Shown here one piece after another: positions 39,233 through 49,258 of a stretch of 64,000 nt of DNA. How positions within the stretch are numbered: position 1 is the stretch's first letter; the number at the start of each line of letters is the position of its first letter. The stretch is from Bradyrhizobium oligotrophicum S58 (lineage in GTDB: Bacteria > Pseudomonadota > Alphaproteobacteria > Rhizobiales > Xanthobacteraceae), in NCBI RefSeq assembly GCF_000344805.1, contig NC_020453.1, forward strand, positions 6,295,001 to 6,359,000, in the 5' to 3' direction. The position numbers were made by a program, and so were the translations under genes. Under the pieces are notes generated by a model. That model was not told the origin of the DNA and searched no databases. It worked only from the letters and a program-made list of their open reading frames with translations.

Positions 39233-39979
39233 TTACCCCTTGGATTGCTGGCGGGTGAGCCGGGTCGAGTAGCGATAGCGGTCGGCGGGATGAATGCTGA
39301 GCGAGACCTCGGCCATCTCGTTCGAGGCAAACAGATACTGCCGCCGGATCGAGAGCGCATGCGCGCCGGCGGTTGCCTTTAGCGGCTCGGCCATCTGCGC
39401 CGGGACGCCGACCGCAGAGATGTCCTGGCGGATCTCCGCGATCCGCCGGCCGGAAATCTTCTCGATCAGGGTGCCGAAGATCTCGTGATGGCCCGCCATC
39501 CGCGCGCGGACCTCGTCCGCGAACGCGGCGTCGAGATAGACGTCGGTCCAGCAGATCGGCGTGCGCGTGGCGTCGCCGGGGATCATGCGAAGGCTCGAAA
39601 TGCACAGCCAGCGGCGGCCGGGCCGGCATCCGAGCTCATCCGCCAGCTGATTGTCGGTGACGACGTCGGCCACGCGCTGAACATGTCGCTCGGTCTCGGT
39701 GCCGAACTGCTGGACGGCCTCGATCGTCGCCAGCGCCTGCGTGAAGCCGCTCCCGCTGCGATCCGGCGTCCGTGCCTCGACCCGCGTGCCGGCGTTGCGC
39801 TTGCGGCTGACGAGCCCTGAGGCCTGCAGCTCCCGCATCGCCGCGCGCACCGTTGAGCGGCTGACGGCGAACTGGTCGGCCAGCTCGAACTCGTTCGGCA
39901 GCACCGAGCCCACCGGATGGCGCCCTTCGGCGATGGCCTCCGCGAGCGCCCGGGCCACGATCGCATAGCGCTTTTCCAC
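39233..39979 (-). CDS. GntR/HutC-type repressor with UTRA domain
   Basis: A 248-residue regulator with an N-terminal winged helix (NEFELADQFAVSRSTVRAAMRELQASGLVSRKRNAGT) and a C-terminal UTRA ligand-binding domain. The GTG start at 39979 is supported by AAGGAGAG six bases upstream. It is divergent from the lyase gene at 40115, and a perfect palindromic operator lies between them. It should repress the lyase/transporter/fumarase operon and be released by a pathway metabolite, possibly a dicarboxylate or the amino-acid adduct. Confidence 0.92.
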   Translation of the reverse strand: MEKRYAIVARALAEAIAEGRHPVGSVLPNEFELADQFAVSRSTVRAAMRELQASGLVSRKRNAGTRVEARTPDRSGSGFTQALATIEAVQQFGTETERHVQRVADVVTDNQLADELGCRPGRRWLCISSLRMIPGDATRTPICWTDVYLDAAFADEVRARMAGHHEIFGTLIEKISGRRIAEIRQDISAVGVPAQMAEPLKATAGAHALSIRRQYLFASNEMAEVSLSIHPADRYRYSTRLTRQQSKG

Positions 39980-40065
39980 CCGCTCTCCTTCGCAAACGGC
40001 ATCGATCCACGGGCATGGAAGCCCGATGCGACCGGGATTCGTCAAGGAAGCCCATTGACGGGATC

Positions 40066-40100
40066 AATATGTTCGTACATTTTATATGTACGAACATATT
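40066..40100. promoter_or_regulatory. Perfect palindromic operator for the GntR-type repressor
   Basis: AATATGTTCGTACAT, a five-base spacer TTTAT, then ATGTACGAACATATT: two perfectly inverted 15-base arms. Each arm is itself nearly palindromic (ATGTTCGTACAT), suggesting two adjacent repressor-dimer sites. It ends 14 bases before the lyase start and probably overlaps its promoter. Confidence 0.85.
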
Positions 40101-40114
40101 ATCGAGGAGGATCC

Positions 40115-41482
40115 GTGGGCAGCACCGTTTTTGATTCCGTCCTTTTTCGCGACATGTTCGGGACCGCCGAGATGCGCGACGTCTTCAGCGACGAAGCCAT
40201 GGTAGGGCGCTACATCGAGGCGGAGGTTGCGCTGGCCCGCGCCCAGGCGCGCATGGGCGTCGTGCCGAGGGATGCCGCCGCGGCGATCGCCACCGCGGCC
40301 AAATCCATCCAGATCGATTTCGCCAAGCTGCGGCACGAGACCGAGATCGTCGGCTATCCGATCCTGCCGCTGGTCCATCAGCTGTCCGAAGCCGCCGGTG
40401 AGGCCGGACGCTATGTCCATTGGGGCGCCACCACCCAGGACATCATGGACACGGCCAACGTGCTGCAGCTTCGCGCGGCACTGGAGATCGTCGCGCGCGA
40501 CCTGCGCGAGATCAGGGACATCCTGACGGCGATGGCGCGCAGATATCGCGACACGCCGATGGCGGGGCGGACTCATCTCCAGCAGGCGCTGCCCGTCACC
40601 TTCGGCTACAAGGCCGCCATCTGGCTGTCGTCGATCGACCGCCATATCGAACGCATCGATCAGGCGCTGCCGCGCATCCTGCTCGGCGAATTCTCCGGCG
40701 CCGCCGGCACGCTCGCCTCGGTCGGCACGAACGGGCTCGAGATGCAGAAGCTGTTCTGCGAAGAGCTCGGTCTCAACCAGCCCTCGATCACCTGGCACGT
40801 CGCGCGCGACGGCATCGCCGAAGCCGTCACCCTGCTCGGCCTCATCACCGGCAGCCTCGGCAAGATCGCGACCGACGTCATGCTGATGTCGTCGACGGAA
40901 TTCGGCGAGGTCTCCGAGCCGTTCGTGCCGGGACGCGGCGCATCGTCGACGATGCCGCAGAAGCGCAATCCGATTTCGAGCGAACTGATGCTCGCGGCCG
41001 CCAAGGCCGTGCGCCAGCACGTGGCGGCGATGCTCGACGGCATGATCCATGATTTCGAGCGTGCCACCGGTCCCTGGCACCTCGAATGGATCTCGCTGCC
41101 GGAAAGCTTCCTGCTGACCGCGGCCTCGCTCGCCAACGCCAAGTTCATGCTGGCCGGACTGGTCGTGCACGAGCAGCGGATGCTCGACAACCTCGGCCTG
41201 ACGCACGGGCTGATCGTCGCGGAGGCGGTGATGATGGCCGCCGCCCCCAAGCTCGGACGCCAGCACGCGCATGACGTCGTCTATGCCGCGTGCCGCAAGG
41301 CGATCGAAGGCGGTGGCCAGCTTGCCGACATTCTGTCCGACGTGTCCGAGATCGTCGCCGCGCTCGGCGGCAAGGATGCGATCGCGCATCACTGCGACCC
41401 CGCCAACTATCTCGGCCTGTGCGGACCGATGGTCGATCGGGCGATCGACCTGTCCGGCGCGGCATCCCGCGCGACCGGCTGA
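40115..41482 (+). CDS. Aspartase/fumarase superfamily lyase (adenylosuccinate lyase-like)
   Basis: A 455-residue lyase of the superfamily that includes adenylosuccinate lyase, 3-carboxymuconate cycloisomerase and lyases of N-substituted aspartates. The mobile catalytic loop GASSTMPQKRNPISSEL is at about 275-290, and HWGATTQDIMDTA and GRTHLQQALPVTF are also conserved. The GTG start follows GAGGAGG. Being the first gene of a repressed operon with a dicarboxylate transporter and fumarase, it more likely cleaves an imported compound to fumarate than serves purine synthesis. Cycloisomerase activity is an alternative. Confidence 0.88.
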   Translation: MGSTVFDSVLFRDMFGTAEMRDVFSDEAMVGRYIEAEVALARAQARMGVVPRDAAAAIATAAKSIQIDFAKLRHETEIVGYPILPLVHQLSEAAGEAGRYVHWGATTQDIMDTANVLQLRAALEIVARDLREIRDILTAMARRYRDTPMAGRTHLQQALPVTFGYKAAIWLSSIDRHIERIDQALPRILLGEFSGAAGTLASVGTNGLEMQKLFCEELGLNQPSITWHVARDGIAEAVTLLGLITGSLGKIATDVMLMSSTEFGEVSEPFVPGRGASSTMPQKRNPISSELMLAAAKAVRQHVAAMLDGMIHDFERATGPWHLEWISLPESFLLTAASLANAKFMLAGLVVHEQRMLDNLGLTHGLIVAEAVMMAAAPKLGRQHAHDVVYAACRKAIEGGGQLADILSDVSEIVAALGGKDAIAHHCDPANYLGLCGPMVDRAIDLSGAASRATG

Positions 41483-41556
41483 CCGCCTCAAACCGACCGA
41501 TCACGACAAGGCGCCCCAGAGCGCCGTTTCGGACATCAAACATCGAGGAAGCGAAC

Positions 41557-42885
41557 ATGGGAACGATCGCAGCGGCGCAAAATGACGGCCGCGCAACAAG
41601 TGTCGCCACGGCCAGGAAGAAGCCGCTGTGGCGGAGCCTCGGCCTGCAGGTCGCCGTCAGCATGGTGCTCGGCATCGCCGTCGGCCTGCTGTGGCCGGAC
41701 TTCGCCACCTCGCTGAAGGTGCTGGGCGACATCTTTCTCCGCCTGATCAAGACCGCGGTCGCGCCGCTGGTGTTTCTCACCGTCGTCGTCGGCATCGTCG
41801 CGGCCGGCGACATCAAGCGCGTCGGCAAGGTCGGGCTGATCGCGATCCTCTATTTCGAGATCGTCTCGACGGTCGCCCTGGCGCTCGGCCTGATCTTTGG
41901 CAATGCGATCGGCGTCGGCAAAGGCCTCGGACAGATCACGGCCTCCGCAGCCGCCACCAAGGGCGCCGAAGCCGCGGCCAAGGCGGCCGCCTCGTCGCAC
42001 ACCACCTTCGATCAGTTCCTGCTCAACGTGTTTCCCGACAATTTCCTCGGCGCTTTCGCGCGCGGCGAGCTGCTTCAGGTGCTGGTTATCGCCCTCATCT
42101 TCGGCTTCGGCCTGATGGCGCTGTCGCCCGAGCGGCGAGCGCCGATCGAAAGCGGACTGAACACCATCTCCACCGCGTTCTTCGAGTTCATCCACATCAT
42201 CATGTCGCTGGCGCCGATCGGCACGTTCGGTGCGGTTGCCTATGCGGTCGGCTCCAACGGCACCAGCGTGCTGATCGCCCTCGCCTACCTGGTGCTGACG
42301 TTCTACGCCCTGGTCGCGCTGTTCATCCTGGTCGTGCTCGGCGCCATCTGCGCGCTGTTCGGCATCAACATCCTGCATCTGCTGCGCTACATCCGCGAAG
42401 AAATTCTCATCATGCTCGGCACCGCGTCATCCGAAAGCGTGCTGCCACGGCTGCTGGAGAAGCTGCCGTCCTATGGGCCGTCGACGCAGACCGTCGGTCT
42501 CGTGCTGCCGACCGGCTATGCCTTCAATCTCGACGGCACGTCGCTGTTCATGTCGATGGGCGTGATCTTCCTCGCCAACGCCTATGGCGTGACGCTCAGC
42601 TGGGAGCAGGAGCTGGGCATTCTCGCCATCATGCTGCTGACGTCGAAGGGCGCTGCCACCGTCTCCGGCGGCTCCTTCGTCGTCTTCGCGGCGACGGTCA
42701 CCGCGTCCGGCATCCTGCCGGTCGACGGCCTCGCATTGATCTTCGGCGTCTACCGCTTTCTCTCGATCGCGGTATCGACGTGCAACGTCATCGGCAACAC
42801 GGTGGCCGCGGTCGTCGTCGCCAAGATCGCCGGAGAGTTCGACGGTGATACGTTGCGACGTGTCGACGCCGCCGAGGTGAATTGA
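41557..42885 (+). CDS. Dicarboxylate/amino acid:cation symporter (DctA/GltP family)
   Basis: A 442-residue inner-membrane symporter with the SLC1-type fold. It has a helix-rich N-terminus (LGLQVAVSMVLGIAVGLLWPDF), a serine-rich hairpin (ILIMLGTASSESVLPRLLEKL), the substrate-site motif PTGYAFNLDGTSLF and the TSKGAATVSGGSFV hairpin. It would import C4-dicarboxylates or acidic amino acids with cations. GAGGAA lies upstream of the ATG. It is the middle gene of the GntR-controlled operon. Confidence 0.93.
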   Translation: MGTIAAAQNDGRATSVATARKKPLWRSLGLQVAVSMVLGIAVGLLWPDFATSLKVLGDIFLRLIKTAVAPLVFLTVVVGIVAAGDIKRVGKVGLIAILYFEIVSTVALALGLIFGNAIGVGKGLGQITASAAATKGAEAAAKAAASSHTTFDQFLLNVFPDNFLGAFARGELLQVLVIALIFGFGLMALSPERRAPIESGLNTISTAFFEFIHIIMSLAPIGTFGAVAYAVGSNGTSVLIALAYLVLTFYALVALFILVVLGAICALFGINILHLLRYIREEILIMLGTASSESVLPRLLEKLPSYGPSTQTVGLVLPTGYAFNLDGTSLFMSMGVIFLANAYGVTLSWEQELGILAIMLLTSKGAATVSGGSFVVFAATVTASGILPVDGLALIFGVYRFLSIAVSTCNVIGNTVAAVVVAKIAGEFDGDTLRRVDAAEVN

Positions 42886-42907
42886 GCGCTGGCCAGGGAG
42901 AGCGTCA

Positions 42908-44314
<1,407 letters not shown>

Positions 44315-44525: not shown

Positions 44526-45590
44526 CTAGGTGGCTGGCGGACGGAGAGCGTCTGCGAACCATGCGGCTGCCAGCTCATTGCGTGCAGCGGCGTGGTTGTA
44601 GATGGTGTGCTCGCCATCCGGCCACGTCTCGACGCGTGACAGCGGATGGCAATTGCCTGTCAGGAAGCTCCGCTGCTCGCCGAGAGCGACCACCGGATCC
44701 GCGCCGCCTTCCAGCACCAGCGTGGGACAGGCGAGCGGCGCACGCTCGCCGTCGAAGACCAGCGACGGCAAGACGCCCGCGAGCTCTGCAGCCTCACCGA
44801 CGCCGAACAGCGCCGCGAGTTGCTCCTGCACGGTGCGGTACGGCGGGATTTGGGGGCGTGCGGGCGAGCCGTTGATGCAGCAGGCGGCGATCCGTCGATC
44901 GCGCACCGCCGTCAGTGCGGCGAACAGTCCGCCGAAACTGTTGCCCCAGATCCCGACCGGTCGTCCGGGCGCGACGACGAGATCGACGAACCGGCTGAAT
45001 CCGGCCGTGACGTCGGCGTCGGCGAACACGCCGCCCTCGATGCGGCTGTTGCCCTGACCGGGACCGTCCACCAGCAAGCAATCGAGGCCGCGCCTGCACA
45101 GCGCTTCCGCCATCGTGCGGTAGGCGGTCGACCAGCCGCTCATGCCGCCGAACACGATCACGGCGCCCAAGGCGTCGCTGCAGGCATGAAAGTGCCAGCC
45201 GAACAGTGCGCCGCCGCGGTGAGGCACTTCGATGCCGGAGACCCGGAATTCGGACAGTGCGGCGAAGCGGCCGAAGCAGCGCGTCATCTCTCGGTAGAGC
45301 GCGCGCTTGCGCCCGCCGTCGGCGTTGAAGGCCATCTGGGCGAAGACCAGACACGCCGCGGCGGCGTGCCAGGCGTCGCGTGCGCGGACCGGGTCTTCCT
45401 CTGCCCGGGCGCACGCTTCCTGGTCGCGGCCCAACTCCTCCAGCACCGCGTCCCAGGGTGCGCCCGCGCGGACCTGCTGGTGCGCGCGCTCGGCGAGGTC
45501 GCGGGGCACGCCGTAGTCCACCATGCGCGAGACGGGCATCGCGCGGCAGAGGGCCTCGATCTGCTTGAACTGGTCTTCACTTGGCCGCAT
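44526..45590 (-). CDS. Alpha/beta hydrolase (FrsA/DHPON hydrolase-like)
   Basis: A 354-residue serine hydrolase. An N-terminal helical region precedes an alpha/beta hydrolase fold with nucleophile elbow GIWGNSFGGLFA, acid loop LEGGADPVVALGEQ and a histidine in DGEHTIYNH. Enzymes of this type include C-C bond hydrolases of aromatic and alkaloid breakdown. The start at 45590 overlaps the end of the monooxygenase gene by 14 bases, so the two should be cotranscribed and coupled. It probably acts on a product of that enzyme; the specific reaction is unknown. Confidence 0.85.
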   Translation of the reverse strand: MRPSEDQFKQIEALCRAMPVSRMVDYGVPRDLAERAHQQVRAGAPWDAVLEELGRDQEACARAEEDPVRARDAWHAAAACLVFAQMAFNADGGRKRALYREMTRCFGRFAALSEFRVSGIEVPHRGGALFGWHFHACSDALGAVIVFGGMSGWSTAYRTMAEALCRRGLDCLLVDGPGQGNSRIEGGVFADADVTAGFSRFVDLVVAPGRPVGIWGNSFGGLFAALTAVRDRRIAACCINGSPARPQIPPYRTVQEQLAALFGVGEAAELAGVLPSLVFDGERAPLACPTLVLEGGADPVVALGEQRSFLTGNCHPLSRVETWPDGEHTIYNHAAARNELAAAWFADALRPPAT

Positions 45591-47187
45591 GCGCGAGATC
45601 TCCCGTTGTTGCTCGGGCGACCATCGCGGCCTTGCGCCAGCCGAGCTTGTGGCGGAGCTCGTCGACGAGGCGTGGCAGGTCGGCTGTATCTGCGGCAAAG
45701 CCGAACAGGTTGGTGTCCGGGCGCGTCAGCATCGCGGCGACATGCTTTTCGGCCAGATACGCCGCATAGACGCCCTCGACGTCGACGATCCGCTCCACGC
45801 CGGGGCCCGCATCGTCGGCCAGCGTGAACAGCCGGCACCCGAGATCCTTCAGGAAGGCAATCCTGGACGCATCGAGTACCACGGCAGGATTTCTCTCAGC
45901 GATCAGCGCGAAGCGATAGCCGACATGGTCGTCGAGCCTCGCCGTCGTTCCGCCGACGCGCACTTGCCCCTGCGGCGGCACCGAGCCGACGACCTTGCCG
46001 GCCACGCCGCCACGGTCGTTCTGGATGAGACCGGCGCTGAAGGACGGAAACGGTGGCGGTGGCGGAAGCAGGTTGAGGCGGAACGCCAGGTCGCGGATGA
46101 ACGCCAGAGCGCGGTTGTGGGTGTTCGATACCTTGCCGAGCATCACCGCGGTCTTCATGATGCTGGCGACATGCGGACGCCGCTCCGCTTCATAGCTGTT
46201 GAGAATGTCCGGCGTCGCGACGCCGCGCATCACGAGGTCGAGCTTCCAGGCGATGTTGGCGGCATCGCGGATGCCGGAACACGCCCCCTGCCCCAGGGAG
46301 GGCGGCATGGTATGAGCCGCGTCGCCGCCGAGGAAGGTTTGTCCCTTGCGCCAGCTGTGGGCCATGCGACTTTCGAAGGTGTAGACAACCTGGCGGATGA
46401 TGCTGATGTCGTCCGGCCCGACGTCGTGATAGTGCTTGAGGATCTTCCAGGCGGTCTCCGGCTTCTCCATCGTCGCCGTGTCCTCGTGCTTCAGCACCGC
46501 GAATTCGAACCGCTGGCGGTTCTTGCCGATCGGCAGGAACATGTGGCCCCGTGCCGGATCGCAGTACATCTTGGTCTCATCGAAGCTTGACGCCAGCGGC
46601 CGCTTGCGCTCGCCGTCGATGTTGAGCCAGCGCTCGTGGAAGCCGCTGTCGTCGCGCTGGATGCCGAGCGCGGAGCGGACGAAGCTGCGGGCGCCGTCGG
46701 CACCGAAAACGTAACGCGCGCGCAACGTCTGGGTGCGCTCGCCGGCTTTCACCGCGAGCTCGACCGATCCGCCCGCGCTCGTCAGTCCGGTGAGCTCGGT
46801 GCCCTGGCGTACGCTGACGTTCGGCAGCGTGCGTACCCGGCGGTCGATGGCCGCCTCGATGTCGGGCTGGTGGATCGAGATGTGTGCCGGGAAGCCCATC
46901 GGAATGGTCGGAATCGCGCCGGCGTCGATGAGGCGCTGGCCCTTCGCATTGTAGAAGATGAAGGATTTGATCGGCGACGATTCGCGCAGCGCCTCGCCGA
47001 TGTCGCAGGCGAAGCTGAGGAGCCGTGCCGTCTCCCCGTCGATGTGGGTCAGCCGCGGCAGGCCGTACAGCGTCGGCCAGCGCTCGATGACCACGACGCG
47101 GTGGCCGAGCTGGCCCAGAAGCGATGCGGCGGTCAGGCCGGTCGGTCCATAGCCGACGACGGCCACGTCGAAATCTGTCTGCACCAC
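45577..47187 (-). CDS. FAD-dependent aromatic hydroxylase (MhpA-like)
   Basis: A 536-residue flavoprotein monooxygenase. The FAD-binding Rossmann motif [20 protein letters not shown] is at the N-terminus, [16 protein letters not shown] is the DG motif, and the second FAD motif is [22 protein letters not shown]-terminal thioredoxin-like domain completes the phenol hydroxylase/MhpA architecture. Such enzymes hydroxylate phenolic rings using NAD(P)H and O2. The GTG start follows GGGAGGA. A nod box lies 45 bases upstream and a NodD-like gene is divergent, so a flavonoid or related phenolic is the most likely inducer and perhaps substrate. Confidence 0.9.
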
Positions 47188-47232
47188 GAAAGGTCCTCCC
47201 TTGATTTTGGGGACGACCTTGTGGGATTGGCT

Positions 47233-47281
47233 GGCATTAGTAAAATCGATTGTTTCTATGGGAAGTATCCACGTTTCGGAT
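47233..47281 (-). promoter_or_regulatory. nod box upstream of the flavin monooxygenase operon
   Basis: Read on the minus strand, the 49 bases start ATCCGAAACGTGGAT (a perfect ATC-N9-GAT) and end with AAACAATCGATTTTACTAAT plus GCC. The classical nod box has the same two modules at the same spacing, the second reading ACAATCAATTTTACCAAT. About 35 of 49 bases match the textbook sequence as I recall it, and most differences fall at known variable positions. It lies between a NodD-like gene and a divergent catabolic operon rather than nod genes. Confidence 0.85.
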
Positions 47282-47292
47282 GGATGGACCGC

Positions 47293-48216
47293 ATGCGCTT
47301 CAACGGCCTCGACCTGAACCTGCTCGTCGCGCTCGACGCGCTGCTGACCGAGCGCAACCTCACGGCGGCGGCTCGCAACATCAACCTCAGTCAGCCGGCG
47401 ATGAGCGCAGCGGTGGGACGGCTGCGAACCTATTTCAAGGACGACCTGTTCATCATGCGTGGGCGGGAGCTGGTGCCGACGCCGCTTGCGGAATCCCTCG
47501 CCGCGCCGACGCGCGAGGCGCTGCTGCACATCCAGCTGACGATTTCGAGCCGGGAGGCATTCGATCCCGCGAAGTCCGACCGGCGCTTCCGCATCGTCGT
47601 ATCCGACTTCATGACCATCGTGTTCTTCCGCAGGATCATCGAGCGGGCCGCGCGGGAAGCGCCCGGCGTCAGCTTCGATCTGCTGCCGTTCGACGATCAG
47701 CCGGACGAGCCGCTGCGGCGGGGTGAGATCGATTTCCTGATCTTCCCCGAGGTGTTCATGCCGCCGGGCCACCCGAAGACGAAATTGTTCGATGAGACCA
47801 TGGTCTGCGTCGGCTGCCGCTCGAACCGGCAGCTGAGGGGCAAGCTGACGTTCGAGACATACATGTCGATGGGGCATGTGATGGCCCAGTTCGGCAAGAC
47901 ACGAAAGCCATCGATCGACGAATGGCTGCTGCTGGAGCACGGCATCAAGCGGCGAGTTGAAGTGTCGGTCCAGAGCTTCGCCATGATCCCGCACTGCCTG
48001 CTGGAAACCGAGCGCATCGCGACCATGCACCGGCGCCTGGCGCTGCACTTCGCAAAGACCATGCCGCTGCAGATCGTCAAGCTGCCGGCGCATCTTCCCG
48101 CCTTCACCGAGGCGATCCAGTGGCCGGCCCTGCACAACAGCGATCCGGCCAGCGCCTGGCTGCGGGGTATGGTGCTAGCCGAGGCCAAGCGCATGCGCGT
48201 TTCGCACGGCTCCTAG
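47293..48216 (+). CDS. NodD-like LysR family regulator
   Basis: A 307-residue LysR-type regulator strikingly close to NodD. The N-terminus [20 protein letters not shown], the helix-turn-helix [21 protein letters not shown] and the stretches [35 protein letters not shown] and [14 protein letters not shown] follow NodD almost position by position. NodD proteins bind nod boxes and activate on flavonoids; a nod box is directly upstream, divergent to a flavin hydroxylase operon. No nod genes are present. The start is 47293 by homology; 47284 is also possible. Either leaves only a few bases between the box and the start codon. Confidence 0.92.
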
Positions 48217-48343: not shown

Positions 48344-49258
48344 TCACCGCGTTCGCTTGGGACCTCCGGCAGCCGTGCGCTTGTGCTCGTCCATGAGCAT
48401 TGCCACGAAGGCTGTCACCTTCGGCGCGCGAAAGCGGGCTGCGGGGAAGACGGCGTGGATGCCGCCGGACGGCAGCGTCCAGGATGGCACGACGTGGACG
48501 AGGCGGCCTGCCGCGAGATCGTCCCTGATCAGGAAGTCGGGCAGCACCGCAAGACCGCCACCGGCCAGCGTCGCGGAGAGAACCGCAGGCGTCGTGTTGA
48601 TGGTCAGCGTCCGGCTCATCTCAACGCTTTCCCGCTCTGTCTCGCTTCGCGCGAACTGCCATATCAGCGGCTCCTTCAACGCAGCGTTCGCAACAAACGG
48701 CAGCGAGGCGAGGTCCCGCGGATGCGCGACACGCTTGACCACGCCGGGAGCCGCCACCAGCAGCTGACGAAAGCTGCCGATCCGCCGCGTCTGCAAGGTG
48801 GAATCGTCGAGCCATCCGACGCGGATCGAGAGATCGATCTGATTGGCGATGAGGTCGACCTTGCTGTCGGCGAGGACGAGATCGACCCGGCACGCCGGAT
48901 AGGTCCGGGAGAACGCCGTCGCAATCGTAGCAAGGATGCATGTGCCGTAGTCGTTCGGCGCGGCAATCCGCAACAGCCCCATCGGCTCGGCGTTGCTTTG
49001 CGCGAGCTCGGCCATCGCGCTCTCGGCCTCGCGCAGGATGGCGGCGCATCGCGCATGCAGCATGCGGCCTGCCTGCGTCGGCTCGACGCGGCGGGTCGTG
49101 CGCACCAAAAGGTCGGTCTTCAGCTCACGCTCGAGCGCGGCGACCTGTTGGCTGACCACCGCCTTGGTGATCCCCAGCCGATCCGCCGCGCGGGTGAACG
49201 ACGCGGCATCCACGACCGCGGAGAAATAGACCAGGCGATTGAGATTGATCGGCTCCAC
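48344..49258 (-). CDS. LysR family regulator (AaeR/DmlR-like)
   Basis: A 304-residue LysR-type regulator with N-terminal helix-turn-helix LVYFSAVVDAASFTRAADRL through GITKAVVSQQVAALERELK and a periplasmic-binding-protein-like effector domain. It is not close to NodD. It is divergent from the DsbA-family gene; the intergenic region contains an inverted repeat suited to LysR binding. The probable target is the DsbA-like gene and possibly the MBL-fold gene behind it. Confidence 0.9.
   Translation of the reverse strand: MEPINLNRLVYFSAVVDAASFTRAADRLGITKAVVSQQVAALERELKTDLLVRTTRRVEPTQAGRMLHARCAAILREAESAMAELAQSNAEPMGLLRIAAPNDYGTCILATIATAFSRTYPACRVDLVLADSKVDLIANQIDLSIRVGWLDDSTLQTRRIGSFRQLLVAAPGVVKRVAHPRDLASLPFVANAALKEPLIWQFARSETERESVEMSRTLTINTTPAVLSATLAGGGLAVLPDFLIRDDLAAGRLVHVVPSWTLPSGGIHAVFPAARFRAPKVTAFVAMLMDEHKRTAAGGPKRTR

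Follow-up and report, generated by a model that had tools for sequence, protein, structure and literature searches.

In the 64,000-nucleotide window of the Bradyrhizobium oligotrophicum S58 chromosome analyzed here, a NodD-family regulator and a nod box stand opposite a hydroxylase-hydrolase operon instead of nod genes. On the evidence of sequence we think it fairly probable that this module would work as an inducer-dependent NodD/nod-box switch for the catabolism of an aromatic ring, probably that of a plant polyphenol, possibly in a state near the one that preceded symbiosis. The NodD/nod-box module on a catabolic operon is real and conserved and, in the parts of the literature available to us, it is visible only as the "nodD2" of Bradyrhizobium sp. 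DOA9.

S58 is described as a photosynthetic nodulator of Aeschynomene with a nod-independent route, and its genome as 8,264,165 bases with 65.10% G+C (PMC4861915). The window is part of that single 8,264,165-base chromosome.

Organization of the module

The regulator (307 residues, 47293-48216, plus strand) exceeds the cut-offs of both PF00126, the LysR helix-turn-helix, and PF03466, the LysR substrate domain. The span given for it in the initial annotation, 47188-48216, does hold the regulator and also takes in the intergenic gap, the homologous frame beginning at 47293. An MhpA-like flavin hydroxylase and an alpha/beta hydrolase had been proposed as an operon opposite the regulator, and this is the arrangement found: an MhpA-like FAD-dependent aromatic hydroxylase with a GTG start (536 residues, 45577-47187, minus strand; PF01494, NF004829) and an alpha/beta hydrolase of the FrsA/2,6-dihydroxy-pseudooxynicotine (DHPON) hydrolase/AntI type (354 residues, 44526-45590, minus strand; PF12146), whose frames overlap by 14 bases. 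The nod box lies on the minus strand at 47236-47281, between the divergent genes. For the three module genes, dN/dS against five relatives runs from 0.11 to 0.33 (0.11 to 0.19 for the regulator against five module relatives, and 0.11 to 0.33 for the hydroxylase).

Two neighbors are mentioned for completeness. A further LysR gene (48344-49258, minus strand) follows downstream of the regulator, and a relative of it adjoins the module in only two loci, L073 and L076. At 39233-44314, a GntR regulator, a PcaB-like lyase, a dicarboxylate transporter, and a class II fumarase lie in a row and form a separate metabolic cluster beside the module.

The nod box

Both nod-box half-site pairs are present on the minus strand at the spacing first proposed for them: ATC (47281-47279)-N9-GAT (47269-47267), followed by ATC (47250-47248)-N9-AAT (47238-47236). 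The core, AAACAATCGATTTTACTAAT (47236-47255), occurs with no mismatch at one place only in the 8,264,165-base genome, and one other site has three mismatches. With a relaxed core pattern that tolerated one mismatch, the module box was the only hit in the genome of strain SSBR45G (G222); S58 gave one further hit besides its module box, at a second cluster described below. Pairs of ATC-N9-GAT with a variable gap were rejected as a genome query; all six hits lay elsewhere, and the module box, with AAT closing its last half-site, went undetected.

We scored the element against a 49-column matrix built on 21 distinct boxes, 33 of the 44 nodA-linked loci having yielded one. It scores 19.8 bits, below every canonical box (45.8 to 92.0 bits in leave-one-out scoring) and well above the best score of -10.1 in 8 Mb of first-order Markov random sequence; nothing else in the window exceeds -5 bits. 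The core alone scores 28.0 bits and was matched by none of 500 dinucleotide shuffles. The distance from the box to the regulator start is 50 bases, compared to 49 to 51 in nodD1-nodA loci. By its half-sites, its core, and its spacing from the regulator, the element is a nod box, as the initial annotation had it, and binding by NodD is predicted.

The same box is found in other module loci, being identical in SSBR45G and nearly identical in a Xanthobacteraceae metagenome-assembled genome (L015). In ten of 11 module gaps the 49-column score lies between 1.7 and 41.7 bits, the full box of L078 reaching only 1.7, and in the eleventh, L080, it is -32.8; there a deletion in the nod box has removed the full box. 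Nod-box cores precede the regulator in all nine module loci tested, with no shuffle of 500 as good in any of them, and in eight of these they lie 29 to 36 bases from its start.

The regulator

Among the matches listed (120 of 3,586 at E ≤ 1e-40), the named relatives of the regulator are mostly LysR proteins of Bradyrhizobium and Paraburkholderia, many of them called NodD1, and identity to proteins named NodD1 is 68 to 72%. The fetched nodA-linked NodDs of Bradyrhizobium fall in the same range, so the first description of the protein as following NodD almost residue for residue was overstated. The next-best match inside the S58 genome is 39% identical, and none of the NCBIfam models reached its cut-off with the regulator. 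Two solved ligand domains, labeled only "LysR family transcriptional regulator," match it at E of about 1e-85.

Similarity to NodD is uneven along the protein. Against 21 nodA-linked NodDs the first 65 residues average 84% identity and the ligand domain 63%, and against 11 second-copy NodDs the averages are 81% and 57%. Because the ligand domain averages only 63% identity to NodD1, the inducer may differ from a flavonoid.

We fetched the 48 nearest loci in named genomes, and nodA is in the fetched flanks of 44; the other four have the hydroxylase in place of nodA (L014, SSBR45G; L015, the Xanthobacteraceae genome; L016, DOA9; and L061, B. mercantei). Since the neighbor of the S58 regulator is the hydroxylase operon and the genome search returned no NodA, we take the regulator, from its sequence and context, to be a NodD-family protein that is not a nodulation regulator.

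Distribution of the module and of NodA

The hydroxylase (E ≤ 1e-130) is present in nine of 265 genomes of the genus, and in all nine it is divergent to NodD and in tandem with the hydrolase, the three genes being adjacent. Across the order, a search at E ≤ 1e-110 found it in one of 297 genomes, S58 itself. Named module carriers include plasmid pDOA9 of Bradyrhizobium sp. DOA9, Bradyrhizobium sp. 170, CCGUVB1N3, B. arachidis, and Ec3.3. The only genes common to at least ten of the 11 module loci are the regulator (11 of 11), the hydrolase (11 of 11), and the hydroxylase (10 of 11); one more cluster of this frequency is the antisense frame of the hydroxylase. Neither a ring-cleavage dioxygenase nor mhpBCD or other mhp-type partners are among these common genes.

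Some copies are damaged or incomplete. In L080 (G077), the locus that has lost its full box, the hydroxylase frame breaks off after 70 residues; the frames of regulator, hydroxylase, and hydrolase are all cut short in B. mercantei (L061). Two loci (L084 and L085, in G082 and G021) keep a module-group NodD, 99.7% identical to P0032 and inside group B of a quick tree, and lack the hydroxylase. Next to the module-group NodD, both loci have a MATE transporter gene, and L084 also has a gene of reverse-transcriptase-like (group II intron) type nearby.

Since the box is shared between divergent genes, either gene could be its target, and it might serve only the autoregulation of the regulator gene, the operon being an unrelated neighbor. 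We regard this as very improbable in view of the adjacency, which is kept in all nine carriers of the genus and recurs on two Agrobacterium plasmids with another hydroxylase lineage.

NodA (E ≤ 1e-30) was found in 139 of the 265 genus genomes and NodD (E ≤ 1e-120) in 141. Exactly two genomes have NodD without NodA, S58 and SSBR45G, and both are module carriers; if carriers were spread at random, the chance of both falling among the nine would be 0.001. The initial annotation had noted that nodABC is missing from the window, and for nodA, the part of the set that the genome search covered, the absence extends to the whole S58 genome at E ≤ 1e-30. A Pfam NodA match in S58 of 25.6 bits was discarded, being partial (67 of 195 positions) with no NodA-like frame at the site. 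Table 2 of PMC4861915 gives both nodD and nodABC as absent in S58, and on nodD that record can be corrected, since S58 encodes a protein about 70% identical to NodD1. SSBR45G is reported as a symbiont of A. indica without nodABC (PMC10012927).

NodA is present in the other seven of the nine carriers, an enrichment that is not significant (7 of 9 carriers versus 132 of 256 other genomes; Fisher p = 0.18). Module and nodA share one replicon in DOA9 (C2, the symbiotic plasmid), and they lie about 45, 66, and 82 kb apart in G077, G109, and G196. By replicon, identity, and distance, the DOA9 module regulator is very probably nodD2, BDOA9_0205810, which is described as lying 0.27 Mb from the nod cluster (PMC4339197). 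Both the presence of NodA in these carriers and the proximity of module and nodA speak for a reused copy, that is, for a symbiotic NodD and nod box that were duplicated or captured beside an enzyme operon and were the only copy kept by strains that are now without nodABC. The trees, described below, bear on the same question.

The two enzymes and their likely chemistry

The hydroxylase scores 514.4 bits on NF004829, the model of the MhpA subfamily, against a cut-off of 390 bits. The hydrolase matches the structures 2jbw, the DHPON hydrolase (E = 6.9e-7), and 6hxa, AntI (E = 1.9e-4), and all 11 aligned relatives keep its residues S218, D298, and H328; from motif and invariance, these residues form a putative Ser-Asp-His triad. 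In a fold search with a predicted model, the DHPON hydrolase and AntI are only 15 to 18% identical, and since the model is of low confidence (mean pLDDT, 58.5), this search is only supportive. The DHPON hydrolase takes an acyl chain off a dihydroxy ring. PMC11069340 describes the enzyme as breaking a C-C bond. By analogy, the enzyme pair points to an aromatic ring, and the predicted substrate is probably of the acyl-resorcinol type; the pair would convert an acyl-resorcinol ring, such as that of chalcones, to hydroxyquinol and an acid.

In Pseudosulfitobacter, homologs of the pair have an annotated maleylacetate reductase gene on one side and, on the other, genes encoding an intradiol dioxygenase and an enzyme of 3-oxoadipate cleavage. 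The 3-oxoadipate:acetyl-CoA acetyltransferase exceeds its cut-off; the "maleylacetate reductase" has only general iron-alcohol-dehydrogenase domains and reached no NCBIfam cut-off. Compared with established pathways, these flanking genes look like a hydroxyquinol route. In S58 itself, a 57%-identical relative of the Pseudosulfitobacter reductase lies at 1.88 Mb of the chromosome (C1), one gene from an intradiol dioxygenase. The stretch around it (L108, G000:C1:1876001-1893000), with its intradiol dioxygenase and maleylacetate-reductase-like genes, is a candidate hydroxyquinol lower pathway, and LysR and ABC-transporter-like genes are near.

Membership in the MhpA subfamily fits phenylpropionate substrates too. 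The operon might thus serve ordinary phenylpropanoid catabolism, its regulator answering 3-hydroxyphenylpropionate, a hydroxycinnamate, or an alkylresorcinol and not flavonoids, with the nod box a plain LysR operator. The subfamily score of the hydroxylase agrees with this, as does a ligand domain that is less conserved than the DNA-binding part. However, no ring-cleavage dioxygenase or mhp-type partner is conserved with the module, the partner hydrolase resembles the DHPON hydrolase and AntI, and regulator and box are still of NodD type, so that we find this account doubtful.

Another use of the same chemistry would be to destroy nod-gene inducers or plant defense flavonoids, which would tune signaling or protect the cell instead of feeding it. 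Since seven of the nine carriers have NodA, the operon could shut off its carriers' own signal, and for Variovorax, daidzein is described as antibacterial and the ifc cluster has been proposed to detoxify it (PMC11069340). The two NodA-less genomes, however, offer no endogenous Nod-factor signal that the operon could tune, and S58 possibly has a hydroxyquinol route; signal removal appears quite unlikely to us.

The reading that we prefer remains catabolic, and its steps would be as follows. A NodD-family activator would bind the nod box between the divergent genes, and a plant phenolic, if that is the inducer, would then activate, in place of nod genes, the operon for the two enzymes. Acting on an acyl-resorcinol-type compound, for which a chalcone, a flavanone, or a related polyphenol is a candidate, the FAD hydroxylase and a C-C-bond hydrolase of retro-Claisen type would together strip its ring and hydroxylate it; hydroxyquinol and an aryl acid are the likely products. 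The chromosomal intradiol dioxygenase and maleylacetate-reductase-like enzyme could feed the hydroxyquinol into central metabolism. In evolutionary terms, the module would represent a NodD/nod-box system in its catabolic state, near the state from which symbiotic NodD arose.

Relatives beyond the symbiotic NodDs

In a second S58 cluster (L081, C1:3085001-3098000), a NodD-like regulator of 39% identity is divergent to genes for an FrsA/DHPON-like hydrolase, an FAD monooxygenase, and an extradiol-type dioxygenase of glyoxalase fold; MFS, MetA-type porin, and CoA-transferase genes are near, and the whole looks like an aromatic ring-cleavage cluster. The divergent gap contains a nod-box-like core of 16.2 bits, matched by one of 500 shuffles; over all 49 columns it scores 4.4 and -9.1 in two scorings. 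A second nod-box-like core, of 13.2 bits, lies upstream of the porin gene.

More distant NodD-like regulators were sought in the phylum, where 15 of 398 genomes matched, and in the order, where eight of 347 did, and eight regulators with 39 to 48% identity were taken from these searches. Together with the L081 regulator, four of nine have a nod-box core 31 to 36 bases from the start (L089, L093, L096, and L081), each equaled by at most one of 500 shuffles. At L095 the core is weak, 27 of 500 shuffles equaling it, and none was found at L090, L091, L092, or L094 or at three control LysR genes. Scored over all 49 columns, the elements of L089 and L081 exceed their shuffles, whereas those of L093 and L096 do not, their match being limited to the core. 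Enzyme genes lie beside several of these regulators: a glyoxalase-fold dioxygenase with an FAD monooxygenase at L096 and L090, and FrsA-like hydrolases at L096 and L095; the fetched stretches of L090 and L092 contain a match to the S58 module hydrolase. L089, from a genome of the same genus (G236) with no NodA at E ≤ 1e-30, combines a 48%-identical regulator and a nod-box-like element with a luciferase-like monooxygenase and an FMN reductase.

A similar arrangement outside the genus is found on the Agrobacterium plasmids pAt2 (A. fabrum Kin001) and pAt1D1609a (L103 and L105). A 55%-identical NodD-like regulator is divergent there to an MFS gene, a hydroxylase (45 to 46%), and a hydrolase (46%), and the intergenic nod box (ATCCATCCATAACACGGATGATCTTCATCAAAACAATCGATTTTTATCAT in pAt2) scores 22.6 and 18.5 bits, compared to shuffle maxima of about -7.5. 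With the Agrobacterium regulator as the query, only two of 72,556 plasmid records are above 60% identity, and these are pAt2 and pAt1D1609a. In the hydroxylase tree, the Agrobacterium enzymes are on another branch than those of the Bradyrhizobium module, with the pairs from Ensifer canadensis and Pseudosulfitobacter, which lie near LysR genes that are weakly NodD-like (26 to 33% over part of their length). The tree lends no support to a single inherited module for Agrobacterium and Bradyrhizobium, and because the two hydroxylases are on different branches, the coupling of a NodD-type switch to a hydroxylase-hydrolase pair probably arose twice, which speaks for a ligand class common to switch and enzymes.

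Trees and the origin of the switch

In trees that include it, the S58 regulator falls within NodD, apart from 14 outside LysR proteins, a set in which NahR- and LinR-type proteins of known function are not included. Given a real nod box, a regulator that lies within NodD, a genome search that returned no NodA, and an operon conserved together with this regulator, the initial proposal that the system was made from the NodD/nod-box unit is sound.

The root differed between a tree with one remote outgroup and trees rooted on many outgroups or on the Agrobacterium proteins. The first tree, a quick one with a single remote outgroup, placed a 24-row clade with all ten module NodDs inside the NodD family (SH-aLRT, 98). 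Four careful trees followed other outgroups: two used the 14 outside regulators, one added Agrobacterium proteins, and one had Agrobacterium as the only outgroup. In all four, the symbiotic NodDs form one clade (100/98 to 100/100) with the module NodDs outside it. Nine quick rootings used subsets of outgroups and models; in seven, the symbiotic NodDs are monophyletic, two of the seven also uniting the module NodDs in a clade (support of 6 and 29). The remaining two, with a paralogue-type outgroup only and with the first 95 columns dropped, nest the module clade inside. None of the drawn trees has a nodA-linked NodD among the module NodDs. Tree groups were named after a tree had been viewed, and the hydroxylase and NodD trees disagree over the position of L074.

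AU tests did not reject the module NodDs as one clade (p = 0.15, 0.20, and 0.33). The nested arrangement, in which the module is joined with the symbiotic NodDs of Bradyrhizobium, was rejected with one outgroup (p = 0.0175) and not with two others (p = 0.09 and 0.26). A reused symbiotic copy would accord with the first tree, with its single nested module clade, and with the two quick rootings that agree; but the module NodDs are outside in the best tree of each of the four careful analyses, and catabolic relatives outside NodD bear box-like cores. We therefore consider the reused copy unlikely.

The initial annotation left three options for the system, namely an ancestral form of the NodD/nod-box pair, a means of removing the plant signal, and a reused copy. 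The ancestral order, with the module NodDs outside the symbiotic clade, is favored, though not proven, because of most rooted trees and of the catabolic, nod-box-bearing relatives outside that clade; the reused copy is less favored. We tentatively raise the possibility that the NodD/nod-box pair predates nodulation, having begun as a sensor and switch for plant polyphenol catabolism by a ring hydroxylase and a C-C hydrolase, under which nodABC was placed later, and that photosynthetic, nod-free bradyrhizobia (S58 and SSBR45 among them) and the Agrobacterium plasmids still run the catabolic version.

Comparison with known systems

The module shares with the NodD/nod-box system of rhizobial nodABC its regulator family, box sequence, divergent layout, and 50-base spacing; it differs in its target, a hydroxylase-hydrolase operon, and in the lack of a NodA in the genome. 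A parallel is FdeR of Herbaspirillum seropedicae, described as a NodD-like activator of naringenin degradation (PMC10799723). There too a LysR regulator is found with an operon that begins across an intergenic gap and encodes an FAD-binding monooxygenase, FdeE (PMC11069340). Unlike the module, fde has FdeC, a glyoxalase-type ring dioxygenase, and the sites of FdeR are given as T-N11-A boxes and not as a nod box.

The isoflavone (ifc) cluster of Variovorax likewise combines an FAD monooxygenase with an alpha/beta hydrolase resembling the DHPON hydrolase, but it is larger, with glyoxalase and cupin genes, and the available text mentions no LysR gene; disruption of its hydrolase gene left daidzein degradation unaffected (PMC11069340). 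With MhpA, the 3-(3-hydroxyphenyl)propionate hydroxylase, the S58 enzyme has in common that it passes the subfamily model, whereas, apart from the hydrolase, no enzyme gene is conserved with it. The S58 hydrolase resembles the DHPON hydrolase and AntI in fold family and, as is likely, in a predicted aryl-ketone C-C hydrolase chemistry, although its identity to them is low. Our literature searches found the FdeR and ifc work and no paper describing a NodD/nod-box-hydroxylase-hydrolase module.

Implications

The dialogue between legumes and rhizobia starts at NodD and the nod box. A catabolic NodD/nod-box module in Nod-factor-free symbionts and outside the rhizobia makes the origin of this switch testable. 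It predicts that at least some nod-free symbionts of Aeschynomene still sense plant phenolics via NodD, and it hints at a possible origin of the nodulation switch in the sensing of plant compounds used as food.
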